Translations under genes and position numbers: made by a program | NCBI RefSeq assembly: GCF_000964425.1 | Contig: NZ_BANF01000138.1 | Span: forward strand, 1 to 47,021 | Source: Komagataeibacter intermedius TF2 | GTDB taxonomy: Bacteria; Pseudomonadota; Alphaproteobacteria; Acetobacterales; Acetobacteraceae | Reading direction: 5' to 3' | DNA length: 47,021 bases | The notes under the pieces: model-generated | The model's database searches: none | Told to the model about the DNA's origin: nothing | Seen by the model: the letters and a program-made list of their open reading frames with translations, nothing else | In this document: piece after piece, positions 34,391 through 47,021 of the stretch | Layout of the letters: each line of letters begins with the position of its first letter | Position numbering within the stretch: the first letter of the stretch is position 1

Positions 34391-35170
34391 TCAGGCAGCG
34401 GGGGTGGCGGATAGCAGCCGGGTCACCAGCTCCAGGTCGGCAGGTTTATCCACATCGACTGCGGCACGCCCGTCCGGCAGGGGAATCATGGCGACCCGCG
34501 CATGCGACAGTTGCCCGATGCGTCGGCAGACATCTGCGCGCGTCAGGCGCCTCAGGATGAACCGCAGCAGGATTCCCGCCCCCAGGGTGCGCGCCATCCT
34601 GAACGGGTGCTTGCGGTCGGCTTCCAGTTTCTGCCACAGCCGGATCACGCCACAGGCGGCAGGCGTGCGGAACAGGAACATGTTGCAGCCCGAAAATGCG
34701 CCATCCGCCAGCCGGATCATGGTGCGTCTGGTACCCGGCACATCGCGCAGGATATCCGGCTCCATCGCGATACCGGCGGCGACGTCACAGCCGCTGTCCT
34801 GCGCCCCCTGCACGAAGGCACGGACCCAGTCGGGCTGCAGCAGGGCATGGTCGGCGGTGGTGACCAGCAGCGGGGTACCCAGTGTGTCCAGCGCCCGCAT
34901 GACACTGGCGCTGGGGCCTGCTGCGGGGGGGATGAAGGTCACATTGTCCGGCACAGCGCCGGACAGCACCTCAGGCCGTTCGATACAGACGGCAATCCTG
35001 CCGATGCCCGCCACTGCCTGCAGGGCCGTAATGACCCGACTGATCATGGGAACGCCGCATACCGGCAGCATGGCCTTGTGGGAAATCCCTGCCGCCTGCG
35101 CCATGGGGTCGGGGCGCCCCGGTCGGCTGCCTGCCAGTATGAGAACATTCAGCCCCATCTGCGCGTTCAC
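34391..35170 (-). CDS. NTP-transferase-like protein, sphingolipid-type locus
   Basis: A 259-residue protein with an NTP-transferase (GT-A-like) fold. The N-terminal LNVLILAGSRPGRPDPMAQAAGISHKAMLPVCGVPM has the G-x-G-x-(R)-x-x-K pattern of the nucleotide loop; LLVTTADHALLQPDWV carries the metal-binding D, and VAMIPLPDGRAAVDVDKPADLELV the closing Asp pair. MobA/IspD/GlmU-type enzymes look like this; the substrate here is unknown. Start is GTG overlapping the hydroxylase stop (GTGA), with an ATG at 35158 as alternative. Its place at the end of the LptF/LptG-like operon suggests that it prepares an activated headgroup precursor, an inference only. Confidence 0.75.
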   Translation of the reverse strand: MNAQMGLNVLILAGSRPGRPDPMAQAAGISHKAMLPVCGVPMISRVITALQAVAGIGRIAVCIERPEVLSGAVPDNVTFIPPAAGPSASVMRALDTLGTPLLVTTADHALLQPDWVRAFVQGAQDSGCDVAAGIAMEPDILRDVPGTRRTMIRLADGAFSGCNMFLFRTPAACGVIRLWQKLEADRKHPFRMARTLGAGILLRFILRRLTRADVCRRIGQLSHARVAMIPLPDGRAAVDVDKPADLELVTRLLSATPAA

Positions 35171-35949
35171 GCCGCGTTACGGGTGGTGTTTGCGCCATCA
35201 GGCCGGTCGCGGGGGGGGGAACCGGTTTCCTCCATCACCCACGGATACTGCTTGGCCTCTTTTACGTCATAACCAAGATTGAACACCGTCGGGCTGCGGG
35301 GGCAGCCACGGGCATCAGTATAATAGCTGCGGAACAGGCGGTCCGCCACAAAGCTGGTAATGCCGTAATTGCCATTTTCGTTATGAAAATGATGCAGCAC
35401 GTGGCGCTGCTTCATCCGCTGGATCCAGCTCATGCGCGGCTTGTAGTTCAGGTGCTGGATGCAGTGGAAGAATTCATAGATGCACGTAATGGTCAGTCCC
35501 GCGCCAAAGGCCGCCGACGCCCCTGCCGCGCCGCCAATGGCGTAACCGATGGGAATGGTGACGATGGCAATCGTGGGAATGGTGTTCAGCGGGGAACCGA
35601 ACAGCACGTCAAGCAGGTGGGGATCCTGGTGATGATCGAAGTGGATGCGCTTCCACAGCGTGGCGCTCCATTTCATGCGATAGAGAAACCGTCCGTGCAG
35701 GATGAAGCGATGAATGGCGTACCACACCAGCGGGTAGACCAGTATGACGGACACGATGCTGATCGCAACCGGTGCCAGCGAGGTGAAATTATAGACCATC
35801 AACGCATAACTGGCGATTGCCAGCGCAAAATACAGCAGGATGGTGGGATAGGTCAGGTAGGCAATCCAGAGCTGACGCAGGTTCATCTTGCCCAGGTCGA
35901 AACTGCGTCCTGTTCGGATGGAACTGTTTTTGAGGGTATTCGTAATCAT
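35167..35949 (-). CDS. Fatty-acid-hydroxylase-superfamily membrane enzyme
   Basis: A 260-residue integral membrane di-iron enzyme. Four or five hydrophobic segments surround the His motifs HRFILHG, HFDHHQDPH, EFFHCIQHL and RHVLHHFHNENGNYG, the eight-histidine pattern of the sterol desaturase/fatty acid hydroxylase superfamily. The HHFHNENGNYGITS ending resembles 2-hydroxylases of ceramide acyl chains, and acetic acid bacteria are known to carry 2-hydroxyacyl sphingolipids, so ceramide hydroxylation is the favoured idea. The ATG at 35949 overlaps the LptG-like stop (ATGA). Nine consecutive G at 35211-35219 (C on the coding strand) fall about 17 codons before the stop. Confidence 0.82.
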   Translation of the reverse strand: MITNTLKNSSIRTGRSFDLGKMNLRQLWIAYLTYPTILLYFALAIASYALMVYNFTSLAPVAISIVSVILVYPLVWYAIHRFILHGRFLYRMKWSATLWKRIHFDHHQDPHLLDVLFGSPLNTIPTIAIVTIPIGYAIGGAAGASAAFGAGLTITCIYEFFHCIQHLNYKPRMSWIQRMKQRHVLHHFHNENGNYGITSFVADRLFRSYYTDARGCPRSPTVFNLGYDVKEAKQYPWVMEETGSPPRDRPDGANTTRNAA

Positions 35950-37055
35950 CGCTCTTCGATCCTCAGTAGCACGGTGATGACGCCAAGGATGAAAATCAGG
36001 ATCCCGACGAATATCGCCATAAGCGAGGGCAATGTTCCCGCATTTCCCAGTGCGCGCAATAGCCCCTGAAATACGATAAATAGCAGGCCCGCGCCCAGAC
36101 ACCAGATTGGCAGCCAACTGCGCGTTCCGGCCCGCGGTGGGATATAGACCACCGGCACGGCCAGTAACAGCATTACCGTGAACGTCACGGGTAACATGAT
36201 GCGTCCCAGTATTTCCGTCAGGAAAAAGGACGGGGACTGGCTGGAAGGCAGCGCGCCACGCTGTTCCTCCAGCATTGTGTTGATGGACTGTGTATAGCTG
36301 ACCGTCAACTGGATGAGGTATTCTGGCGTCAGGGACGCAGGCCAGTCCAGACGTATGCTCTGCCCGGGCGGGGTGTCCAGCAGGTCCACGCGCGTGGGAC
36401 TGACCACGCTGAGGACACGGGTCGGCGTGCCATACCAGCGACCATGGATATAATGCACGTCCGCCAGCGTCGTGACTTTCTGCAGCAGGTTGCGGTGATC
36501 GCGGTGATAGACGGTCACCTGCTTCATCATTGCGCCGCCAGCACTGAGAAAGTTTATGTTTATCAGGTCATTATGAGCCCTGATCCAGTAGTTGCGCCAG
36601 TCATTCGGCGCATTGGGGGACGTGGCGTTCCACCATTGCGCCAGGGCCTGTTCCGTTCTGGGGGTGATCTGGTCATCGACAATGCCGCACAGCACGCCCA
36701 GGGCGATGACGGTAGGCAGCAGCAGCTTGATCAGTCCCGGCGTGGACAGGCCGGCCGCGCGCATGATCGAGATCTCGTTCGAGGTGGTCAGTTGCAGCAG
36801 CGTCAGCAGTGTGCCGATCAGCACGGCAATGGGCATGGCGTTGCCAAACAGCAGCGGCATGTGCATCACCGCGTAGTAAAGCACCCCCGTCAGGCCAAGG
36901 TGGCGGTGCATGATTTCCGTCACCTGCTCCAGCAGCGCGAGGATTTCCATAAGCGCCACCACGATGATGGTGGTTGTCATCACCTTGGACAGCAGTTCAC
37001 GCGACAGATAGCCCAGCAGGACCGTGCCGCTGGCCAGGCGTAGCCGGAATTTCAT
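35946..37055 (-). CDS. LptG-like (YjgP/YjgQ family) permease
   Basis: A 369-residue inner-membrane permease of the LptF/LptG family. MKFRLRLASGTVLLGYLSRELL leads into TM1 (VMTTTIIVVALMEILALLEQV), TM2-3 follow with VLIGTLLTLLQLTTSNEISIMRAAGLS, the conserved coupling-helix region, then a periplasmic jellyroll-like domain (about 140-265) and three more helices with a short tail. In LPS export LptF and LptG span the inner membrane and work with the ATPase LptB2. No lptD, surA, pdxA or lptB is near. Its ATG overlaps the stop of the partner at 37052, and its stop overlaps the hydroxylase start, so it belongs to a lipid-modification operon. Confidence 0.85.
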   Translation of the reverse strand: MKFRLRLASGTVLLGYLSRELLSKVMTTTIIVVALMEILALLEQVTEIMHRHLGLTGVLYYAVMHMPLLFGNAMPIAVLIGTLLTLLQLTTSNEISIMRAAGLSTPGLIKLLLPTVIALGVLCGIVDDQITPRTEQALAQWWNATSPNAPNDWRNYWIRAHNDLININFLSAGGAMMKQVTVYHRDHRNLLQKVTTLADVHYIHGRWYGTPTRVLSVVSPTRVDLLDTPPGQSIRLDWPASLTPEYLIQLTVSYTQSINTMLEEQRGALPSSQSPSFFLTEILGRIMLPVTFTVMLLLAVPVVYIPPRAGTRSWLPIWCLGAGLLFIVFQGLLRALGNAGTLPSLMAIFVGILIFILGVITVLLRIEER

Positions 37056-38284
37056 GCTCCGGCTTCCGTAATGCGGCGCGGCAGTCCATCGGCCGACAGT
37101 TCGCGCGGCGGCAGGGCGGGACCACGGGTCAGCAGGATACGGATGCCACCGGCCTGATGGATCAGCATGCAGATACAGATCACGGCGAACGCCAGCGTGG
37201 GCAGCCAGATCACCAGCAGCGGGGACGTATGCATGTTGGCGACAAAACTCATCCCCATCTGCAGCGTATGGTCAAAGCCGACCAGCGTGATCGCGGCGAT
37301 GGCCAGGCCGGGGTTGCCCTTCTGTCGCTTGCGCACACCGGCCAGCGCACAGGCAAGGATGGGGATGAACGGGATCGCCGCCGTACGGGCCAGACGGAAA
37401 TGCAGTTCGGCAATCATGTAGGAATGGCTGATGGTCGGGTTGCCGTGCCGTATGCCGTAATACAGTTCCGGCACGGTCAGTTCGCGTTCAGTTTCTCCCC
37501 GGCGGCGATAGGCTTCGTCATCCAGCTTGGCTTCAGGGGAAATGAGGCGGGTGGTGCGCGTGAATTCCGTAATGGAGGGAGATTTGTCGGCGCTATCCGT
37601 CACGATCGTGCCATCGACCAGGTCAAGGCGTATCTTCGAGCCATCCGCAGGGATATAGATATACCCTTTCTGTGCAGAAATAAGACGGACATGCGCCTTG
37701 TCCGTCTGGTCACGGATAAAGACATTCCACATGCGTGATCCGGCGTGATCGACCGTTTCAGCGGTCAGCAGGATATTGTCCGATTCCGCGAACATCTTGG
37801 ACTGCAGGTGCGGTGTCCAGCCCGCATGGCTGGCGAAATAGAAGGCCGAGCGGTAATCGTAACGCGCGTATGGCTGTATGAATCCATACAGCGAAAAGGC
37901 CAGAAGGCCGAATATGGCCCCCGTCAGGACAAAAGGCTGGCATATGCGGAAGATCGAGACCCCGCCCGCGGTCAGCGCGTCGATTTCGTGGTTGGCGCTC
38001 ATGCGCCGGATTACGGAAAAGACGCTGACGCACATGGCGGCAGGCAGTGCCAGGCCCAGATAATGGGGCACGAGATCGCTGAGTAGCGCGACGAAGGTTT
38101 TCATCGAACTGCCATTGGCCGCCAGCAGGTCGAACAGGACCAGCAGCCGCTCCAGCAGCAGGGCCGCCATGACCACGCCCAGCGCAATGGCAAAGGGCGG
38201 CACGACCTGGCGCAGCAGGTAGCGGTCCATTGTGTTGGGACTGAGTTTCCCCACAATCCGATGTGGCAAGGACATGCGACTCAT
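37052..38284 (-). CDS. LptF-like (YjgP/YjgQ family) permease
   Basis: A 410-residue LptF/LptG-family permease. MDRYLLRQVVPPFAIALGVVMAALLLERLLVLFDLL is the usual LptF start region (after an extension of about 20 residues from the ATG at 38284); AMCVSVFSVIRRMSANHEIDALTAGGVSIFRI is the coupling region. A large periplasmic domain (about 140-300) precedes three C-terminal helices and a basic tail. It forms an obvious pair with the next gene. The start at 38284 overlaps the metallophosphoesterase stop (ATGA); the frame continues to 38311 without a better signal. A canonical pair for LPS export is expected elsewhere in the genome. Confidence 0.85.
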   Translation of the reverse strand: MSRMSLPHRIVGKLSPNTMDRYLLRQVVPPFAIALGVVMAALLLERLLVLFDLLAANGSSMKTFVALLSDLVPHYLGLALPAAMCVSVFSVIRRMSANHEIDALTAGGVSIFRICQPFVLTGAIFGLLAFSLYGFIQPYARYDYRSAFYFASHAGWTPHLQSKMFAESDNILLTAETVDHAGSRMWNVFIRDQTDKAHVRLISAQKGYIYIPADGSKIRLDLVDGTIVTDSADKSPSITEFTRTTRLISPEAKLDDEAYRRRGETERELTVPELYYGIRHGNPTISHSYMIAELHFRLARTAAIPFIPILACALAGVRKRQKGNPGLAIAAITLVGFDHTLQMGMSFVANMHTSPLLVIWLPTLAFAVICICMLIHQAGGIRILLTRGPALPPRELSADGLPRRITEAGA

Positions 38285-39198
38285 GCAGGCGTGCTTACAC
38301 CGGAACCACACTGTGATGGAGAGGGCAGGTCAAAAATAGTTTCCTGCCCCGTGCCTGTCGTCGCATCCGCCATGAAGAAACGACGCACGACATGCAGGGT
38401 ATAACCCGCGTCATGCGGGGTGATCGAAATACGGTTCCACCCCGCCGCGCGCAGCGGGTTACACGCACGTGCGGAAGCCGATGCGATCCCGACGACCGGC
38501 ACCGGTCCCATGCGACCGGGAAGGGAGGACAGGGTGGATGTATGGGTATGGCCGTGCAGGATCATCTCCGCACCTTCATCTGCGATGCAGGCGTCAAAAT
38601 CCTGTATATCCGTCAGGGCTTTACGGCGTATGGCCAGTCCCGATACCGGCGGATGATGGATCATGATGATGCGGCACAGCCCCTGTCTGCCAGTGTCGCG
38701 CAGGATATTGCGCAGCCGGGCTGCCTGCCGTGCGCCAACGGTTCCGGTCGCCATGAACCATGGTGTAGGCACTGCCGAACTGACCCCGATCAGCGCCACG
38801 TTTCCTACCCGCCGGACGAAGGGAAATGGCAGGGGCCCCATCCACGGCTGCCACAATCCCACGGTCTGGGGCCATCTGTCATACACAAGGGTGTCATGAT
38901 TCCCCGGAATGACTGTGCATGGTGCAGGCATCTGCTCCAGCCAGCGCAGTGCCTGCCTGCATTCTCCCGGCAGGCCCATATTGGTCAGGTCGCCCGTTAC
39001 GGCGATCATGTTGACCGGACAGGTCGCGATATCCGCCATGACCCTGGCCAGGATTTCCGGGCGATGGAGATGGCGGCGGCGGCCTTTCCACGAAAAATAG
39101 CTGAACATGCGCTTGTTGAGTCGTTCCCCCACACGGGGCGGCACCATTTCGGTGGGCAGGTGGGGGTCGGACAAATGCGCGATGGTGATGGTGTTCAA
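38281..39198 (-). CDS. Metallophosphoesterase
   Basis: A 305-residue calcineurin-like phosphoesterase: ITIAHLSDPHLP (D-x-H), MIAVTGDLTNMG (GD), VIPGNHDTL (GNHD), IIMIHHPPV and ILHGHTHTSTL (GH-x-H) make a complete bimetal site. Substrate unknown; phosphodiesters or phosphorylated lipid intermediates are candidates from context. The likely start is TTG at 39198 with AAAGAGG five bases upstream; the ATG at 39279 would add 27 residues with no family similarity. It is the first gene of the five-gene unit and is divergent from the lipid kinase across 159 bp, which must hold the two promoters. Confidence 0.85.
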   Translation of the reverse strand: MNTITIAHLSDPHLPTEMVPPRVGERLNKRMFSYFSWKGRRRHLHRPEILARVMADIATCPVNMIAVTGDLTNMGLPGECRQALRWLEQMPAPCTVIPGNHDTLVYDRWPQTVGLWQPWMGPLPFPFVRRVGNVALIGVSSAVPTPWFMATGTVGARQAARLRNILRDTGRQGLCRIIMIHHPPVSGLAIRRKALTDIQDFDACIADEGAEMILHGHTHTSTLSSLPGRMGPVPVVGIASASARACNPLRAAGWNRISITPHDAGYTLHVVRRFFMADATTGTGQETIFDLPSPSQCGSGVSTPA

Positions 39199-39357
39199 GC
39201 TGACCTCTTTCCTTGCCTCATGCCTGCCGGTAACGCTGTCGGCATGTGTTATGGCTGCGTGCGCGGGAGGGCGCTCCATCTTTTCGTGCCTTGCAATAGA
39301 AGGCAGATGGTTGCTTATGGCCTGTAAGTCAAATTTCAGACAGGGATGGAATGATCA

Positions 39358-40338
39358 GTGACCGGACGATTTGCGCTTGTTTATAACCCGCGCAGCCGGC
39401 GGAACATGGGCGACAGGAGCTTATACGCCCAGACAGCCCGTGATCTGCTGGGAGAAAACTTCGTTGATCCGGCTGACCGTTCCCGTCTGGATGCCAATAT
39501 TGCGGAATTCGCGTCACGCGGGACCGATTGCATTGTCATAGATGGAGGGGACGGGACCGTCAGTGACGTCCTGACCGCCATACACCGGCATTATCCATCG
39601 GACAGGCTGCCTGCCCTGGCTATCCTGCCATCCGGCAATACCAACCTGATTGCGGGGGATGTCGGTTTCGGGCTGCGGGGCATCAGGGCGCTGGAACACC
39701 TGCAGCGGCTTGATGCGTCGGGCCTGTTGCGTCGGAACGTGCGCCGGCGCTGCGGGCTGGTTGTGGAATGGCCGGAACCCGATGGTCGCGCGCCCGTCGT
39801 GGGCATGTTCCATGGGGCGGCCGCGTTTACGCGCGGCATCGAACTGGCCCACCAGCCAGCCATCCTGAACAATTATTCACATGAAATGGCGGTCGTCGTC
39901 TCGTTCCTGTCATCGGTAGCGCATCTGCTGACGCGGCGGTCCCGGCAGGAATGGATGCGCGGCAACGCGCTTGTCATGCGGGCCGGGGCGCGCATTCAGC
40001 GTCAGGGCAACTGCTTCCTGTTCCTGTCAACGACGCTCCAGCATCTGCCCCACGGCATATGGCCGTTCTGGACCGCGCCTGGCGCGCGTGATGACGTCAT
40101 CAACTTCCTTCATGTCGCAGGCCAGCCGTCGCGACTGGCGGCGGCGGCATGGGCGCTGCTGCGGGGGCGACACCCGGCATGGCTGCGACAGAATCCAGAT
40201 TATTGCAGCGGGTGTGAAGACCGTATTGAAATGCTGCTGGAATCCGATTTCGTGCTGGATGGGGAGGTGTTCTCACCCGGTCCCGCTGGCCGGATCGTGC
40301 TGTCCGCGACTGCCCCGATAGATTTTATTCACGCGTAA
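39358..40338 (+). CDS. LCB5 / diacylglycerol-kinase-family lipid kinase
   Basis: A 326-residue kinase homologous to sphingosine, ceramide and diacylglycerol kinases. FALVYNPRSRRNMG opens the catalytic domain; IDGGDGTVSDVL (GGDGT at 63-67) is the ATP loop, and LAILPSGNTNLIAGDVGFG is the next nucleotide-binding segment. The C-terminal half gives a lid domain ending FSPGPAGRIVLSATAPIDFIHA. In this neighbourhood ceramide or a long-chain base is the likeliest substrate; a similar kinase is part of Caulobacter's anionic sphingolipid pathway. Start is GTG at 39358 after GGAATGATCA. The next gene follows with a 12-bp gap. Confidence 0.88.
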   Translation: MTGRFALVYNPRSRRNMGDRSLYAQTARDLLGENFVDPADRSRLDANIAEFASRGTDCIVIDGGDGTVSDVLTAIHRHYPSDRLPALAILPSGNTNLIAGDVGFGLRGIRALEHLQRLDASGLLRRNVRRRCGLVVEWPEPDGRAPVVGMFHGAAAFTRGIELAHQPAILNNYSHEMAVVVSFLSSVAHLLTRRSRQEWMRGNALVMRAGARIQRQGNCFLFLSTTLQHLPHGIWPFWTAPGARDDVINFLHVAGQPSRLAAAAWALLRGRHPAWLRQNPDYCSGCEDRIEMLLESDFVLDGEVFSPGPAGRIVLSATAPIDFIHA

Positions 40339-40350
40339 GGAAGGGTGACC

Positions 40351-41319
40351 ATGCCCCAGTCCAGTCCTTCAGACCGTACTGCCGCAGCCGGTCGGGTCGC
40401 CCGCCTGCTGGCCCATGATCTGGTTCAGCCGGTCGCCCCCTTTGTGAGCGGGTTTGTGACGCGCCTGCTGGGCGGGACGCAGCCACTGGGCGTGATTTTT
40501 TATGGTTCCACCCTGCGCACGCCAGACCCGGAAGGCATTCTGGATTTCTATGTGATTGTTGAACGGCTGGAAGACTGGACTGCTGGTACGCTGTCGCGTG
40601 AAGCCAACCGTATCCTGCCGCCCAATGTGGAATATCACGAAATTACGATTGAGGGACGCATCATCCGGGCCAAGGTGGCGATCCTGTCGATTGCACAGTT
40701 CCGGCGCATGACAGGGCGCGCCACGCTGGATACGACGGTCTGGGCACGCTTCTGCCAGCCCGTGCGACTGGTATGGGTAAGGGGGCCGGAGGCGGCGGAT
40801 GCCATTCTGGCCTGCATCATCCGTGCGGTGGCACAGGCCGGGCGTTGGGCTGCGGTACTTGGTCCTGCGCACGGGACGGCGGATAAATACTGGCTGGCCC
40901 TGTTTGCGCATACCTATGGCGCGGAACTGCGTGTCGAGAACGGACGCAGGCCGAAGAGCCTGCTGCAGGGGCAGGAGACGCGGTACAGGACCCTGTTACC
41001 CGATATATGGCGGGCCGATGGCCTGCCCTTTACATGCACGGGGGATGAACTGTCGCCCAGGCTGACACCAGAACTGCGTCAGACCATGCGTAAAGGCTGG
41101 TGGCTGCGCGGCCGCCTGGGCCGTGTGCTGAATGTCAGCCGCCTGTTCAAGGCCGCCTTCACGTTTGAAGGCGGGGCACGCTATATCGCGTGGAAGATCA
41201 GGCGCCATTCCGGGATTGAACTGCCACTGGGGCCGTTTTCGGAACGGCATCCGCTTATCTGCCTGCCGTATCTGTTATGGAAGCTACGGCAGGCAGGTTT
41301 TTTCAGGCGGCGCGATTGA
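40351..41319 (+). CDS. Tam41-like phosphatidate-cytidylyltransferase homologue
   Basis: A 322-residue protein that I relate to Tam41/Mmp37, the nucleotidyltransferase-fold CDP-diacylglycerol synthase of mitochondria. The N-terminal third has IFYGSTLRTPDPEGILDFYVIVE (YGS at 51-53, then D65-F) as in the Tam41 metal site. EGRIIRAKVAILSIAQFRRM followed by FCQPVRLVWVRGPEAADAIL parallels the Tam41 central region. A basic C-terminal half with ARYIAWKIRRHSG may lie on the membrane. By analogy it would use CTP to activate a lipid phosphate. It follows the lipid kinase by 12 bp with a strong GGAAGGG site and overlaps the convergent SPT gene by 17 bp. Confidence 0.65.
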   Translation: MPQSSPSDRTAAAGRVARLLAHDLVQPVAPFVSGFVTRLLGGTQPLGVIFYGSTLRTPDPEGILDFYVIVERLEDWTAGTLSREANRILPPNVEYHEITIEGRIIRAKVAILSIAQFRRMTGRATLDTTVWARFCQPVRLVWVRGPEAADAILACIIRAVAQAGRWAAVLGPAHGTADKYWLALFAHTYGAELRVENGRRPKSLLQGQETRYRTLLPDIWRADGLPFTCTGDELSPRLTPELRQTMRKGWWLRGRLGRVLNVSRLFKAAFTFEGGARYIAWKIRRHSGIELPLGPFSERHPLICLPYLLWKLRQAGFFRRRD

Positions 41320-42505
41320 TACCCATCTCGCCCGCCACTACGGCGAAGATCTCGACCGCCCTGTCTATCTGCTCCGGCGTGTGCGTCGCCATGACGGACG
41401 TCCGCAGCAGCGGATGCTGGTCAGGCGTTGCGGGCGGCAGGCTGAGGTTGACGTAAACCCCCAGATCCAGCAGTCGGTTCCAGAATGCAACCGCAACCGC
41501 CACATCATCCAGAATGACGGACACGACAGGGCTGGCCTGGGGGCCGGTGCGCAGCCCGGCAGCCTGCAGTCCGGCATGAAGCCTGCGGGCGTTATCCATA
41601 AGCCGCACACGCAATTCGGGCCTGTTCTCCAGTTCCGTCAGTGCTGCCATGGTCGCAGCGATGACTTCTGGCGGCAGGGACGCCGTGAACATGTAGGGAC
41701 GCGAACACAGCCGGATCAGGTCCAGCCCGTCATGATTGGACACACAGTAACCGCCAACCGTGCCAAGGCTTTTTGAGAAGGTGCCGACAACGAAATCGAC
41801 ATCATCCTCCACCCCGTCGGCTTCCGCCACGCCACGGCCATGTTCGCCCATTACACCAACGGAATGCGCTTCATCCGCCAGCAGCCACGCACCGGTTTCC
41901 CGCTTGACGGCCGCGAATTCCGCCATGGGCACGACATCGCCCATCATGGAATAGATGCCTTCAACCACGATCAGCTTCGATCCCGGCGTTCCTTCAAGGC
42001 GGCGCAGGCGTTTATGCAGGTCATCGGCGTCGTTATGACGGAAGCGGATGACCTGTGCATGGCCAAGGCGGCTGCCATCGTAAATGCTGGCATGACTGTC
42101 GGCATCGAGCAGGAGGTAGTCGTCCTTGCCCGCAAGCGCGGAAATCGTGCCCAGATTGGCCTGGTACCCGGTGGAAAACACCATGCAGTGCCGGCGGCGG
42201 AAGAAGGCGCACAGCCGTTCCTCCAGCTGACGGTGCAGCCCCTGCGTGCCGTTGGCGATGCGCGAACCGGTCGTGCCGACACCATACGCCCTGACAGCGT
42301 CCACTGCGGCTTCGATCGCGGCGGGGGACTGGCTCAGCCCGAGATAGTTGTTTGTACCGAACAGAAGCGTCTCACGTCCTTCGATCAGCCCGACCGTGGA
42401 GGAAATGGGCTTTTCGATCACGACGTTGAAAGGATTGCGTCCGCCGCCAGCCGTCACGGCCGACAGGGCGGACGCGAGACCTTCATATTTCGAGAAAATT
42501 GACAT
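41303..42505 (-). CDS. spt: Serine palmitoyltransferase (alpha-oxoamine synthase)
   Basis: PLP enzyme condensing L-serine with an acyl thioester to give 3-ketosphinganine, the first step of sphingolipid synthesis. The 400 residues show NNYLGLSQSP, DADSHASIYDG (PLP-stacking His138), LADEAHSVGVMG (Asp211) and VVGTFSKSLGTVGGY (Schiff-base Lys245). The family also contains KAPA synthase (BioF) and ALA synthase; assignment as SPT rests on the G-T-F-S-K-S motif form and on the adjoining ACP, acyl-activating enzyme and lipid kinase genes. It lies 6 bp downstream of the dedicated ACP gene. Confidence 0.85.
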   Translation of the reverse strand: MSIFSKYEGLASALSAVTAGGGRNPFNVVIEKPISSTVGLIEGRETLLFGTNNYLGLSQSPAAIEAAVDAVRAYGVGTTGSRIANGTQGLHRQLEERLCAFFRRRHCMVFSTGYQANLGTISALAGKDDYLLLDADSHASIYDGSRLGHAQVIRFRHNDADDLHKRLRRLEGTPGSKLIVVEGIYSMMGDVVPMAEFAAVKRETGAWLLADEAHSVGVMGEHGRGVAEADGVEDDVDFVVGTFSKSLGTVGGYCVSNHDGLDLIRLCSRPYMFTASLPPEVIAATMAALTELENRPELRVRLMDNARRLHAGLQAAGLRTGPQASPVVSVILDDVAVAVAFWNRLLDLGVYVNLSLPPATPDQHPLLRTSVMATHTPEQIDRAVEIFAVVAGEMGINRAA

Positions 42506-42511
42506 GGTGTA

Positions 42512-42763
42512 TCAGGATGCCTGCTTGAGAGAGACGATGCAGGCCGCCAGATCATCAATCGTGCGGATATCCGCCAGCCGGTCAAGCGGCACGGAAACGT
42601 CGAGGGTGTCCTCGATTTCCATGACAAAATTCATGACGGCCAGTGAATCAAAGGCCAGATCTTCAACGATCTTGCTGCTGCCATTGATATCACGGGGAAC
42701 CTTGGGGTTCGCCAGCAGCGTCTTCACGATCAGCGCGGAGACGCTCGCTACCGTTTCACTCAT
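42512..42763 (-). CDS. Dedicated acyl carrier protein for the sphingolipid locus
   Basis: An 83-residue ACP with phosphopantetheine Ser40 in LAFDSLAVMNFVMEIEDTLDV. It is clearly distinct from the fatty-acid-synthesis AcpP at 29422 ([10 protein letters not shown]). Caulobacter's ceramide cluster has an equivalent special ACP (AcpR) beside SPT and an acyl-ACP synthetase, and this arrangement matches. It probably carries the acyl chain handed to SPT or to a ceramide synthase. A 199-bp gap with no recognised gene separates it from the acyl-activating enzyme upstream; that gap holds a GGAGCC/GGCTCC stem at 42941-42956. Confidence 0.85.
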   Translation of the reverse strand: MSETVASVSALIVKTLLANPKVPRDINGSSKIVEDLAFDSLAVMNFVMEIEDTLDVSVPLDRLADIRTIDDLAACIVSLKQAS

Positions 42764-42962
42764 TCCTACATCCTTATGGCATGTCCTGCCTGCTTACAGG
42801 CAGGGGATCAGCATGAATGGCCTGCCCCACGATCCATGACCGGGGGAGCGGGGACTGCAATCGGTCCCCTGATCGGAAGTCTTATGATCGAAAAACAGGT
42901 TTTTGGCCAGTCCTGCTTTACAGTCTTGCCCGACCGGGCGGGAGCCGTGCGGCTCCGCTCCA

Positions 42963-44759
42963 TCAGGCCACGGAAACCGATGATGTTTCCAGCGGCTGGA
43001 ACGCACCCGACAGCAGCATGGCCTTCGCGCGCGCGCGCGTCAGCTTGCCCGAGGACGTCTGCGGCAGCGTATGGGGCGGCACCAGAATGACGGAGACATC
43101 CACCCCGTGCTGCCGGCGGAACAGGCTGGCTGTTTCGGTTTTAAGTGTTTCACGCGCTTCTGGGGAGGAGGCGCGGCACTGGACCAGTGCTACGATTTTT
43201 TCGCCTTCATCCTCATCAACCGAAAAAACAGCGACATCGCGGCTGCGCAGGCTGCTGATTTCGGTCTCGGCAGACCATTCCAGATCCTGCGGCCAGATAT
43301 TGCGGCCGTTGATGATGATCAGGTCCTTGGCGCGGCCGGTTATGACAACCTGCCCATCCAGCATATATCCCAGATCGCCGGTATTCAGCCAGCCATTGGC
43401 ATCCACCACGCGGGCGGTTTCCTGCGGGCGGCGGAAATATCCCTGCATCAGGCTGGGACCGCGTACGAATACGGCCCCGATCTGGCGGTCATGCAGCACG
43501 TTGCCCTGCGGGTCGCGTACTTCCAGTTCATGGCGCGGCAGGACTTCACCGCAGATGACAAAGGTGCGCAGGGCGCGTGTGGGATCATTGGAAGGAATGG
43601 CTTCCCCCCGCGTTTCAAGCGCGCGCAGGTCGATCGTATCCGTCCGGATGCCCGAACCCAGCGGCGCGAAACTGATGGCCAGCGTGGCTTCAGCCATGCC
43701 GTAGCTGGCGGTAAATGCGCCGCTGTCAAACCCGACCGATGCAAAGCGCTGGGCAAAATCCTCAAGGATATGATAGCGGATCATGTCACCGCCAATACCC
43801 GCCACGCGCCATGATGACAGGTCAAGCTCGATCGAGGTGGCGCGACGTGCGCACAGTTCATAGCCAAAGGACGGGCTGTAGGAAATTGTGCCACGATTAC
43901 GGCTGATCAGGTCCAGCCAGACATGCGGGCGCCGCGCGAATTCGCGGGTGGGCAGCATGTCGACGCTCAGCTGGCAAGTCATGGGGGTCAGGAAAAACCC
44001 CACCAGACCCATGTCGTGATAAAGCGGAAGCCATGAGACGCAGCGGTCGCCCGTTTCACGGACTTTCAGGCCGTTCAGGGCGATGGCATGGGCATTTGCC
44101 ATGCCGGAACGCTGGGTGACCGCGATTCCCATGGGGAAACGGGTGCTGCCCGAGGAAAACTGCAGATAGGACAGGTCATCAGGCTGGACCGCCGGCAGCG
44201 TTTCGACCGTAATGGGCGTTTCCAGCAGTTCAGCTGGCGTGCCGGAGAATTTCAGATCCAGCCCGGCGGTGATTTCATCCGTCCATGATGAAATGATGGA
44301 GGCGATGACCACGGCGGAGGCCGCAGCCCCTTCGATCATTCCACGCAGCGTACCCACATAACCTTCACGCCCGCCAAATGCGACAGGTAACGGCAGGGGG
44401 GCAGGAACAAGGCCCGCATACTGGCAGCCAAAGAAAATACGGGCGAAATCCCCATCGCTTTCGGCGACGATGGCGACACGGTCACCCGGCTCCAGACCCA
44501 GGGACAGCAGGCGCCTGCCGGTCTCGATCGCCTGCGCGCGCAACGTGCTGTACGGCAGCGTTTCGAGCAGTACGCCCTTGCCAGAGTAAATATTGAAACC
44601 GCTCTTGCCCTGTGCGGCATAATCCAGCGCTGCCGGGAACGTCGGAAAATCGCCGTAACGACGCGGCAAACCAGAATCGGAGGGGGTCGGGAGGCTTATC
44701 ATTTCCGGTAATGTGACTTCCACAGACGTAACTTGAAACGGCGAATGGGCGGTGTTCAA
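42963..44759 (-). CDS. Acyl-ACP synthetase / fatty acyl-AMP ligase
   Basis: A 598-residue acyl-adenylate-forming enzyme. LQFSSGSTRFPMGIAVTQ is the P-loop-like A3 motif, SYGMAEATLAISFAP is A5, NTGDLGYMLDGQVVITGRAKDLII is A7-A8, and LPQTSSGKLTRARAK is A10 with the catalytic Lys. The set, and a neighbouring ACP, point to activation of a fatty acid and loading on that ACP, as AasR does in Caulobacter. The start is TTG at 44759, sharing bases with the upstream stop (TTGA) and preceded by GAGGG; an ATG at 44702 is an alternative. It is translationally coupled to the glycerophosphotransferase-like gene. Confidence 0.88.
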   Translation of the reverse strand: MNTAHSPFQVTSVEVTLPEMISLPTPSDSGLPRRYGDFPTFPAALDYAAQGKSGFNIYSGKGVLLETLPYSTLRAQAIETGRRLLSLGLEPGDRVAIVAESDGDFARIFFGCQYAGLVPAPLPLPVAFGGREGYVGTLRGMIEGAAASAVVIASIISSWTDEITAGLDLKFSGTPAELLETPITVETLPAVQPDDLSYLQFSSGSTRFPMGIAVTQRSGMANAHAIALNGLKVRETGDRCVSWLPLYHDMGLVGFFLTPMTCQLSVDMLPTREFARRPHVWLDLISRNRGTISYSPSFGYELCARRATSIELDLSSWRVAGIGGDMIRYHILEDFAQRFASVGFDSGAFTASYGMAEATLAISFAPLGSGIRTDTIDLRALETRGEAIPSNDPTRALRTFVICGEVLPRHELEVRDPQGNVLHDRQIGAVFVRGPSLMQGYFRRPQETARVVDANGWLNTGDLGYMLDGQVVITGRAKDLIIINGRNIWPQDLEWSAETEISSLRSRDVAVFSVDEDEGEKIVALVQCRASSPEARETLKTETASLFRRQHGVDVSVILVPPHTLPQTSSGKLTRARAKAMLLSGAFQPLETSSVSVA

Positions 44760-45889
44760 CCAATTACCCTCAAAAAGTCAATAATCGATTTCGCGCCTTT
44801 GGCCGCCGTATCTTCCGGAGCCGCAAACCCGAACGTATCGCGTATATACTCTTTTTGTCGATCAAGGAAATTTGCATGCGTGAGGAAGGCCCTGTCAAGG
44901 GTGGGGGCGAAGTCATCCATGCCTGCAACAACAGGGCCAAGGGTCCAGTTTTCATAATTCGGGTCGCCACGCCATTGTACCCGATGTGCATTCAGAAAGA
45001 CGCAGGGGCGCGGTTTTGTCAGGAATTCGCTGACCTGGCTGCTGACATCTCCAAGATACAGGTCTGCTGCCAGCGTATAGCTCATATCCACGCTGCGGTC
45101 GCTGCCTGGATCAATGATCATATGCGGGTACATCCCATATCGCGCCAGTATGTCATCACTTTTGAGGCGATGGGTATCAAATAAACGGTAATGCGGCGCG
45201 AAGATCAGGTTGTATTTTTTCTGTTGGGCAAAATGATCAAGAATTGCCGTGCCAAACCGGTGCCATGATGACAGACGCGGACTAAAATGGGGATTGTAGA
45301 GAATGGTCGGGCGGATATTGGGGAATAATGGCGAACCATGGGCGTGCAGTCGACGCACCATGTCGAATTTTGCATATATTCCAGTGGCATAATGGCCGGG
45401 GCGTAAAACGCCAGCCCGGTTCAGTCGTTCCTCTATCTTGTGTCCCGCCATAAGAATGAAATCGAACTGCCGCGTATCATGGGTGAATCCAATGGCCCGG
45501 TCACCTGCACCGTGACGGGTCCAGATCAGGCGGGGGGAAGAGACGCCCATTTTGCGTAAATACAGCGATGTACGTTCCGGTACGACAATCGCCTGAAATC
45601 TGTTGAAATAATTTCTGTTCAGCAAAAGGACTGCCATTTTACCCAGAGGGGTCTGTCCGTGCTGTCTGATATGGTGCCGGAGCCACCGGGGCATCTGCAA
45701 AATATCGAAGATGACCGAAGATTCGGGGTACAATTTGCAAAGAGCGCGGATACGGGAGTCGCGTTCCGGGGTCAGGCTGGCAATATGAACCTTAATTTCC
45801 GGATAAAGCCGCGCCATTTCCAATGCGATTGGAAGTGAATGGAATTCCTGATGCGGCTGGGCAATATAGGGAAACAGGATATGAAGCAT
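44756..45889 (-). CDS. CDP-glycerol glycerophosphotransferase-like enzyme
   Basis: A 377-residue protein with the TagB/TagF glycerophosphotransferase layout: RLIWTRHGAGDRAIGF (acceptor-side His-Gly), FDFILMAGHKIEERL, TILYNPHFSPRLSSW, NLIFAPHYRLFD, then SVDMSYTLAADLYLGDVSSQVSEFLTK, which is the D-x-S-S-x-x-x-E nucleotide-binding helix, and PCVFLNAH. Such enzymes transfer glycerol phosphate from CDP-glycerol, and the relatives of known sugar/alditol-phosphate transferases share the fold, so a related headgroup donor is possible. The ATG at 45889 (MLHILFPYIAQPHQEF) is chosen; the 80 residues further upstream lack family character. The gene is visibly less GC-rich than its neighbours, hinting at recent acquisition. 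Confidence 0.7.
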   Translation of the reverse strand: MLHILFPYIAQPHQEFHSLPIALEMARLYPEIKVHIASLTPERDSRIRALCKLYPESSVIFDILQMPRWLRHHIRQHGQTPLGKMAVLLLNRNYFNRFQAIVVPERTSLYLRKMGVSSPRLIWTRHGAGDRAIGFTHDTRQFDFILMAGHKIEERLNRAGVLRPGHYATGIYAKFDMVRRLHAHGSPLFPNIRPTILYNPHFSPRLSSWHRFGTAILDHFAQQKKYNLIFAPHYRLFDTHRLKSDDILARYGMYPHMIIDPGSDRSVDMSYTLAADLYLGDVSSQVSEFLTKPRPCVFLNAHRVQWRGDPNYENWTLGPVVAGMDDFAPTLDRAFLTHANFLDRQKEYIRDTFGFAAPEDTAAKGAKSIIDFLRVIG

Positions 45890-46351: not shown

Positions 46352-46746
46352 CTTCACGCCGATCCCCGGCCAGCATTACAGCGGCGATTTCATCCAGGAG
46401 AGGCCCTGCTTCAGTAATGTTGGCCCTTTGCCCGGGTGTCAGGGAAAGAGCTACGGTCTTGCCCGCAGCATCGATAACGGTGTGGATTTTCGTGGTCAGT
46501 CCGACACGGGACCGTCCGATGGCCTGATCTGTGGTCCTTTTTAACGGGCGTCCGCACTATGACTGGTGAGCACGAACAATCGTGCTGTCGATACATTATG
46601 TAGCCATTGGCGTGATCGGCGGCCTGATGCCGGAAAATCCATTCGATACGGTTATCCGCAGTCGTGCCTTCGACATGACCGTCACGATCAGGGAGAAAAT
46701 CCTTTATCCGCTCCCGCTGGCTGTCACTCAGGTCATGCCGTCGCAT
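46352..46746 (-). pseudogene. IS5-family transposase fragment (N-terminal and central parts)
   Basis: Leftward remnant of an IS5-family transposase. It starts MRRHDLSDSQRERIKDFLP and continues to about TTADNR, then skips a stretch (internal deletion) to FRHQAADHANGYIM. The frame then shifts to IDSTIVRAHQ, meets a stop, and resumes as DQAIGRSRVGLTTKIHTVID and VALSLTPGQRANITEAGPLL. It ends abruptly at about 46352 against the rightward fragment. With a deletion, a frameshift, a stop and no C-terminus it cannot be active. Confidence 0.8.
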
Positions 46747-47021
46747 CCACGTCTCTCCCCGTTCCAAAAACACGGATCAGACGGAAGTGCAGGCATCATG
46801 CACATCATACGCTAACTGGCGACACGCCCAGACTGCCGACGGAGACTGGCGGAGGTGGTATCGGAGGACAGGTTAATCCTTATGTCATGGTATCCGGTGA
46901 CCTGTCCTGACTGTCACGATAATGATCGTGCCTCGAACAGCGACGAAAATCGTATCTGAACATTTTGACCATATATGCCGACTGATTCCGGCGATCGGGA
47001 CTGTTTATGAGGAAAGGAGGG
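46747..47021. other. Window end beside the IS remnant, no gene recognised
   Basis: About 275 bp without a supported gene. It contains a CACGAT/ATCGTG inverted repeat with a 4-nt loop at 46915-46930. The terminal inverted repeat of the IS could lie here, but I cannot identify it. Confidence 0.4.

Follow-up and report, generated by a model that had tools for sequence, protein, structure and literature searches.

A phosphosphingolipid-type locus in Komagataeibacter intermedius resembles that of Caulobacter and probably relies on a short-chain dehydrogenase/reductase in place of CerR

The closest described counterpart of the locus analysed here is the phosphosphingolipid (CPG/CPG2) locus of Caulobacter crescentus, CC_1168-CC_1152 (PMC11324152, PMC12275187, PMC10331486). 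As given in PMC11324152, its first part runs aasR, cerR, acpR, spt, CC_1161, CC_1160 (the ceramide kinase CpgB) and CC_1159 (CpgA), and its second part CC_1158 (a phosphoesterase), CC_1157, lptF2, lptG2, cerS, CC_1153 (CofC-like) and CC_1152 (CpgD); the product at the CpgC position, CC_1161, is CDP-diacylglycerol-synthase-like by InterPro. CC_1168 and CC_1166 supply lptC2 and flippase genes. The words Acetobacter and Gluconobacter are absent from the main text of that paper. Within the acetic acid bacteria, Gluconobacter oxydans, a member of the same family as Komagataeibacter, is described as carrying spt, acpR and aasR together (GOX2056-2058) and aca, that is cerS, elsewhere (GOX2417; PMC9386255). 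We analysed a contig of Komagataeibacter intermedius TF2 (NZ_BANF01000138.1, the whole of which, 47,021 nucleotides of a 3.88-Mb assembly, is called the window) that holds a sphingolipid-type locus of 11.5 kb. We consider it fairly probable that this locus is the form that the Caulobacter-type phosphosphingolipid locus takes in acetic acid bacteria, with a short-chain dehydrogenase/reductase (SDR) encoded elsewhere in the genome replacing CerR. The 11 genes that an initial annotation had listed are all present and open on the strands given, with no internal stops in any of them:

34391..35170, minus strand: NT, MobA-like nucleotidyltransferase (PF12804, E 3e-16; best PDB match TTHA0179, E 1e-18)
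35167..35949, minus strand: FAH, fatty-acid hydroxylase (PF04116, E 3e-20)
35946..37055, minus strand: LptG2, LptG-like permease (PF03739, E 2e-53)
37052..38230, minus strand: LptF2, LptF-like permease (PF03739, E 3e-56; open reading frame extends to 38311)
38281..39279, minus strand: MPE, calcineurin-like phosphoesterase (PF00149, E 2e-11)
39358..40338, plus strand: DAGK, lipid kinase (PF00781, DAGK_cat, E 3e-13)
40345..41319, plus strand: TAM, member of a family without a Pfam match (FYGS..DFY motif)
41303..42505, minus strand: SPT, serine palmitoyltransferase (NF047599, 644.7 bits)
42512..42763, minus strand: ACP, dedicated acyl carrier protein, AcpR (PF00550, E 3e-10; DSL motif)
42764..42962: ACP-AAS gap of 199 bp, the position of cerR in many other alphaproteobacteria
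42963..44759, minus strand: AAS, fatty acyl-AMP ligase, AasR (NF006624, 896.4 bits, cut-off 600)
44756..45889, minus strand: GPT, CDP-glycerol glycerophosphotransferase-like (PF04464 in relatives only)

Read in the order AAS, the 199-bp gap, ACP, SPT, TAM, DAGK, MPE, LptF2, LptG2, FAH and NT, the locus appears nearly colinear with CC_1165-CC_1152, orthology being judged from order and domain. Genes for spt, acpR, aasR, the kinase, the CC_1161-position product, the phosphoesterase, lptF2, lptG2 and a nucleotidyltransferase are shared with Caulobacter in near-same order, and the comparison therefore identifies cerR as missing between its neighbours and FAH as occupying the Caulobacter cerS position. 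Unlike Caulobacter, the window has no counterparts in place for CC_1159 (CpgA), CC_1157 and one of two nucleotidyltransferases, keeps cerS elsewhere in the genome and carries GPT as an extra gene, while its Scs7-family hydroxylase lies inside the locus, in contrast to the DesA-family enzyme (CC_0202) that lies elsewhere in Caulobacter (PMC11324152). In Escherichia coli BL21 the order is yghO-aasR-cerR-acpR-spt-lptG-lptF (L141:19283-27067): as in the window, spt adjoins second lptG/lptF genes, and a CerS-family acyltransferase (yghO) is present, but cerR stands between aasR and acpR, and the 35 kb searched gave no match to the window kinase or TAM. The link between SPT and LptFG thus occurs in a gammaproteobacterium as well.

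The window SPT passes the curated SPT model NF047599 (644.7 bits, cut-off 500) while failing the BioF and Kbl models (332.8 bits for bioF, cut-off 426.45), and the dedicated ACP and acyl-ACP synthetase adjoin it. For the reductase we searched 150 Acetobacteraceae genomes at least 90% complete, scoring in each search the best 14-17 candidates per genome from a loose first look; SPT was found in 56 of them at 54% identity or more (E<=7.5e-126), with the next best match at 1.1e-70, a clean split. A CerR query from L065 matched 16 of the 150 at no less than 43% identity and E<=1.3e-64, the rest lying at E>=3.9e-29, and a 21-sequence CerR profile gave 336-411 bits in 16 genomes and at most 145.4 bits in all others listed. 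Fifteen of the 16 carriers are SPT-positive (G054 is the SPT-negative exception), so 41 of the 56 SPT-positive genomes are without a CerR ortholog, among them that of the window and its two congeners. The best match to the CerR profile in the window genome is an epimerase at E 1.8e-33, as in SPT-negative genomes, and cerR is accordingly absent both from the aasR-acpR-spt unit of the locus, where the 199-bp gap stands, and, by profile, from the genome. In other families of the same class, 18 of 20 SPT loci examined contain CerR.

A CerS-family acyltransferase does lie in the window genome, on contig C934 outside the window locus, head-to-head with an SDR:

G000:C934:7347-8504, plus strand: CerS-family acyltransferase (GNAT; family membership by tree)
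G000:C934:6396-7190, minus strand: classical SDR, head-to-head with the GNAT (PF00106, E 1e-33)

The acyltransferase is 99% identical to that of Komagataeibacter oboediens LMG 18849 and 91-96% identical to those of other Komagataeibacter; its profile had no match in the PDB. A CerS-family query matched 70 of the 150 genomes at E<=1e-40. Matches of at least 49% identity were confined to 16 genomes, namely the 15 SPT-positive genomes with CerR and G019, and those of 28-37% identity covered 39 further SPT-positive genomes, including the window's own (G000:C934:7338-8501). In a quick tree of 53 sequences with SH-aLRT support only, the acyltransferases of acetic acid bacteria and those of G009, G094, G051 and G115 formed a single clade (100) that belonged to a larger group containing the other CerS and E. 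coli YghO; a long stem leads to this clade, and support for its precise sister is weak (SH-aLRT 86 where the two join). Of 22 rows labelled CerR-linked in this tree, 21 are so, L082 (G019) being without CerR by profile. Three acyltransferases linked to oxoamine synthases lay away from the larger group. They come from L131 (G013), L227 (G139) and L228 (G005); here and at similar places in Acetobacteraceae without SPT, an oxoamine synthase 35-39% identical to SPT is adjoined by a GNAT 31-34% like CerS, the three GNATs forming a clade of their own; these loci possibly encode another pathway to an N-acyl amino-ketone lipid.

An ortholog of the SDR (E<=1e-55; next match E 1e-42) was found in 43 of the 150 genomes, 39 SPT-positive and four SPT-negative (G009, G051, G094 and G115). 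Among the 56 SPT-positive genomes, 15 have CerR only, 39, including the window's, have the SDR only, none has both and two have neither. The latter are G019 and G111, which has a truncated SDR match and assembly errors; joint decay of SPT and the SDR-GNAT pair in G111 was rejected as a reading, for frames are broken in unrelated neighbours too and assembly errors are likelier. Across 241 genomes of the class, the SDR profile scored 335-417 bits only in the four Acetobacteraceae carrying the SDR, followed by 225.6. The SDR-GNAT pair stands head-to-head in 76 of 80 named loci, all in Acetobacteraceae (Komagataeibacter, Novacetimonas, Gluconacetobacter, Acetobacter, Gluconobacter, Neokomagataea, Bombella, Commensalibacter, Endobacter and others), with 88-563 bp between alignment ends. 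The four loci without an adjacent SDR belong to Gluconacetobacter (L164, L159, L160 and L162), and at least one is a second copy: in G. diazotrophicus a CerS locus with the SDR (L155) exists alongside one without it (L164).

A 12-sequence alignment of the SDR shows a GASSGIG-type cofactor motif, Asn121, Ser149, Tyr162 and Lys166 (YxxxK) kept, with exceptions at the neighbours of Ser149 and the second Gly of GxxxGxG. The WGR after the second strand is invariant, which we take to favour NADPH, and the enzyme is predicted to be cytosolic because its N-terminus runs straight into the Rossmann motif. As far as sequence goes, it has the classical-SDR motifs of 3-ketosphinganine reductases of the SDR type (KDSR); the glycine motif and YxxxK are named for Tsc10, KDSR and BT_0972 (PMC9278070), and the SDR described here is linked to sphingolipid genes, although the likeness is by motif description and not by sequence alignment. 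The most likely reading is that acetic acid bacteria use a cytosolic SDR of the Tsc10/BT_0972 type instead of periplasmic CerR. The initial annotation had held that the reductase and synthase must be encoded elsewhere or replaced, and the genome search that it called for supports one answer for each: the synthase is encoded elsewhere, on C934, and the reductase is most likely replaced by the SDR that adjoins it.

The pair is also found within a cluster of this kind. The KSS8 locus (L194) runs NT, FAH, LptG2, LptF2 and MPE on the minus strand, DAGK and TAM on the plus strand, then an oxoamine synthase and the SDR on the minus strand and the acyltransferase on the plus strand, which is the window order with an oxoamine synthase replacing SPT and the SDR-CerS pair attached. 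Because the pair sits inside the cluster there, the SDR is physically tied to the pathway. The KSS8 oxoamine synthase shares 34% identity with the SPT of the window, and no ACP or AAS match was found in the 20 kb searched. G009 and G094 have the SDR-CerS pair beside a similar oxoamine synthase, without the rest of the cluster; the two such synthases scored, from KSS8 and G009, do not reach the cut-off of any SPT or BioF model. There is about an even chance, in our estimation, that CerR has been swapped for a cytosolic SDR paired with cerS, so that reduction may come before N-acylation as in eukaryotes, and that the gene set is modular, its headgroup, hydroxylation and export block being kept and its base-forming block exchanged, the KSS8 oxoamine synthase maybe making an unusual sphingoid base.

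Genes flanking spt track it across the family, a point that the neighbourhood survey proposed in the initial annotation was meant to test. At least four LptF/LptG genes occur in 55 of 56 SPT-positive versus 2 of 94 SPT-negative genomes, FAH in 49 versus 2 (with no match between E 1e-30 and 6e-91), TAM in 48 versus 1 and MPE in 46 versus 1, with Fisher p values of 1.5e-27 to 2.0e-37 that overstate the number of independent events because the sampled genomes are related. The SPT-negative genomes carrying LptFG and FAH are G051 and G115, of the same genus. In three genera with both SPT-positive and SPT-negative members (G003 versus G091 and G136; G033 versus G106 and G147; G048 versus G113), TAM, MPE, LptFG and CerR follow SPT; FAH does so only in the genus of G003, the SPT-positive members of the other two being without it. 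Among 55 SPT loci fetched from the family, some of them cut by contig ends, the arrangement FAH-LptG2-LptF2-MPE, DAGK-TAM, SPT recurs in the same order and strands in 34, and in 40 if FAH is not required, which exceeds what chance would give. An intact NT-FAH-LptGF-MPE-DAGK-TAM block lies on another contig than SPT in G049 and G103, and about 20 kb from SPT in G061. In the small genomes G102 and G027 (L078 and L079), NT, FAH, DAGK and TAM stand beside SPT; both genomes are without an MPE match at E<=1e-25, and their LptFG genes, four in number, lie apart from the block. Together, the SPT profile, the Caulobacter-like order and the tracking of spt by its flanking genes bear out, as genomics, the earlier proposal of a phosphosphingolipid-type locus.

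Several other explanations have to be weighed against this reading. It is extremely improbable that the SPT-like gene encodes an 8-amino-7-oxononanoate synthase (KAPA synthase, the competing identity named at the outset) or another oxoamine synthase and that the locus yields no sphingolipid: the enzymes share a superfamily and the bioF model does match, but below its own cut-off while the SPT model is well exceeded, ACP and AAS are adjacent, and a further oxoamine-synthase gene, 37% identical to SPT, is present in the genome at C905. Another part of the genome could instead encode the reductase, as an epimerase distantly like CerR, the SDR beside cerS doing something else. The epi and aca genes of Gluconobacter oxydans are given as GOX1849 and GOX2417 in PMC9386255, which names an epimerase as the reductase where we propose the SDR beside cerS, and the window genome has its own epimerase match to the CerR profile at E 1.8e-33. 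This explanation is nevertheless unlikely, since the SDR tracks SPT, has cerS as its neighbour and in KSS8 is joined to the entire cluster, whereas the epimerase tier of at most 145.4 bits does not track SPT, being found equally in SPT-negative genomes and unreached (E<=1e-25) in 14 SPT-positive ones. The GOX1849 assignment may be a superfamily-level match (its sequence was not compared), and a literature search, which subscription papers largely escaped, gave among the matches listed no 3-ketosphinganine reductase of acetic acid bacteria besides GOX1849 (PMC9386255). Highly unlikely, in our view, is the absence of any dedicated reductase, the base being left oxidised or reduced by a housekeeping ketoreductase such as FabG; the role of the SDR is drawn from genomic inference only, which would allow it, but production of ceramide/dihydroceramide has been reported for Acetobacter malorum (PMC10626005, PMC11722302), a carrier of the SDR-GNAT pair (L190), and bacteria of this group therefore do form a reduced base. 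For the export genes, it is quite unlikely that LptF2 and LptG2 carry a lipopolysaccharide variant or other lipid and merely neighbour the sphingolipid genes. They are ordinary LptF/LptG family proteins, and for the Caulobacter pair a role in sphingolipid transport is put forward, but not investigated, in PMC11324152; against the rival reading, LptF/LptG copy number tracks SPT in the counts above, including in 7 of 8 SPT-positive genomes without TAM.

A number of observations count against replacement of CerR by the SDR in a phosphosphingolipid pathway. A very divergent CerR could escape a search of the best 14-17 candidates per genome, and G019, which has SPT and CerS, lacks both CerR and this SDR; in that genome a frame resembling the SDR (44% identical) lies about 3.4 kb from SPT. 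Taken by itself, the CerS-family gene fails to follow SPT, as 15 of the 70 genomes with it are SPT-negative and 11 of these are without the SDR. SDRs are a huge family, and the matches of this one to the PDB are generic. The 39 SPT-positive genomes with the SDR possibly reflect one event, because their GNATs form one clade, mostly of one lineage; outside that lineage its support consists of KSS8/G115 and G009/G094, and there the SDR might act on another amino-ketone, since the two linked oxoamine synthases scored (KSS8 and G009) lie under the cut-offs. The functions suggested for TAM and GPT rest on weak or relative-only matches, and no CDP-alcohol transferase (CpgA) Pfam match was found among the 15 window proteins scanned, the rest of the genome being unsearched. 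Finally, the reading is genomic inference throughout, product, headgroup, activities and expression included.

FAH carries the histidine motifs HRFILH, HFDHH and HVLHH together with PF04116, and its sole significant relatives in the PDB are yeast Scs7 (E 5e-5 and 1e-4), the closest solved structure, which places it with the Scs7/FA2H hydroxylases; it is probably a ceramide fatty-acid 2-hydroxylase. Acetic acid bacteria contain 2-hydroxylated ceramides, which the likeness to Scs7 fits. DAGK has GGDG at 63, no CxxxCxxC, and the CpgB/CC_1160 position, and CpgB is described with the same two features (PMC10331486); DAGK is probably a ceramide kinase. LptG2 and LptF2 fall below the LptG and LptF equivalog cut-offs (183.7 versus 240 bits and 187.1 versus 230 bits) and form an additional pair, as the genome holds a separate LptF/LptG pair on C872.

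The headgroup genes are less firmly placed. An alignment of 35 TAM sequences has invariant Y53, G54, D67, K110, R135, Q138 and P139, and the FYGS...DFY motif suggests a nucleotidyltransferase. The label "Tam41-like" given earlier does not hold by Pfam or PDB profile: PF09139 (Tam41) was not among the hits of 35 relatives at E<=1, where filters drop most matches above about 0.1, and the best PDB match (E 0.08) was not Tam41, with no Tam41 chain among the matches. The glycerophosphotransferase-like label of GPT stands for its relatives, 14 of 20 aligned sequences matching PF04464 (Glyphos_transf; best E 1.8e-7), and not for the window protein itself, which has no PF04464 match. The absence of GPT from many relatives was rejected as biology, and GPT counts were not used, because several loci have a 2.5-5-kb N-masked stretch at the GPT position or end there. 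The single MobA-like nucleotidyltransferase of the window stands at the position of CC_1153 (CofC-like).

In the pathway we propose, AAS would load a fatty acid onto ACP, and SPT, going by profile and literature, would condense the acyl-ACP with serine to 3-ketosphinganine, which the SDR (C934:6396-7190, minus strand), taking the role of CerR, would reduce in the cytoplasm to sphinganine. The CerS-family acyltransferase (C934:7347-8504, plus strand) would then N-acylate sphinganine to dihydroceramide, whose N-acyl chain FAH, judging by its Scs7 match, would 2-hydroxylate, and DAGK, by analogy with CpgB, would make ceramide 1-phosphate. TAM may activate this product, as Olea-Ozuna et al. are said in PMC11324152 to have suggested for CC_1161, while NT and GPT would synthesise a CDP-linked group, possibly glycerol phosphate or phosphoglycerate, and carry out its transfer. 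A phosphate-bearing headgroup from TAM, NT and, where present, GPT, perhaps trimmed by MPE, is the least certain part of the scheme. LptF2 and LptG2, presumably with a shared LptB, would extract the lipid for the outer membrane, as their co-occurrence with SPT suggests.

In Caulobacter it is disputed whether the base is reduced before or after N-acylation, and periplasmic CerR has no evident NADH source (PMC11087976, PMC11324152); a lineage with a cytosolic SDR in the place of CerR would offer a natural experiment on the order of the two reactions. Should the proposal hold, the SDR would also supersede the reductase published for Gluconobacter; bacteria of this group have been administered to people to supply dihydroceramide (cited in PMC11722302). 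The tight co-occurrence of SPT with a second LptF/LptG pair lends genomic support to the proposed dedicated sphingolipid export machine. What is new here is that the synthase gene lies outside the locus, that an SDR has most likely taken the place of the reductase and that the locus can apparently exchange its base-forming block.

The window genes form three strand blocks: MPE>LptF2>LptG2>FAH>NT on the minus strand; DAGK>TAM on the plus strand, divergent from the first across a 78-bp gap; and GPT>AAS>ACP>SPT on the minus strand, convergent with TAM with a 17-bp overlap. Of the three interlocked transcription units proposed for the locus, the strand blocks are thus real, and strand and 4-bp overlaps suggest three transcripts. 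The FAH open reading frame extends to 36117, but its start is better placed at 35949, where an ATG overlaps the lptG2 stop by 4 bp. A pattern scan gave 5 promoter-like sites against 6.6 expected, no excess, and 16 terminator-like sites against 9.5 expected, a mild excess.

In genus g89 (L065 and L087, 4.5-13.8 kb), the SPT locus has FAH, a CerS-family gene and CerR, and in L065 Pfam matches to myo-inositol-1-phosphate synthase, NTP transferase and CDP-alcohol phosphotransferase, with the kinase and TAM not in the locus; it looks like an inositol-phosphoceramide variant. In L035, L036, L044, L045, L050-L052, L055, L059, L063, L081 and L085, a 2.5-5-kb N-masked stretch lies beside AAS, about 1-4 kb from SPT, and contigs end near that place in several draft genomes; our guess is a repeat, for example an rRNA operon. 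The two long open frames of L036 and L055 were rejected as giant proteins, as they run through the masked stretch. Near the contig end of the window, a short open reading frame (46411-46773, minus strand) resembles what we take to be the start of an IS5-type transposase.

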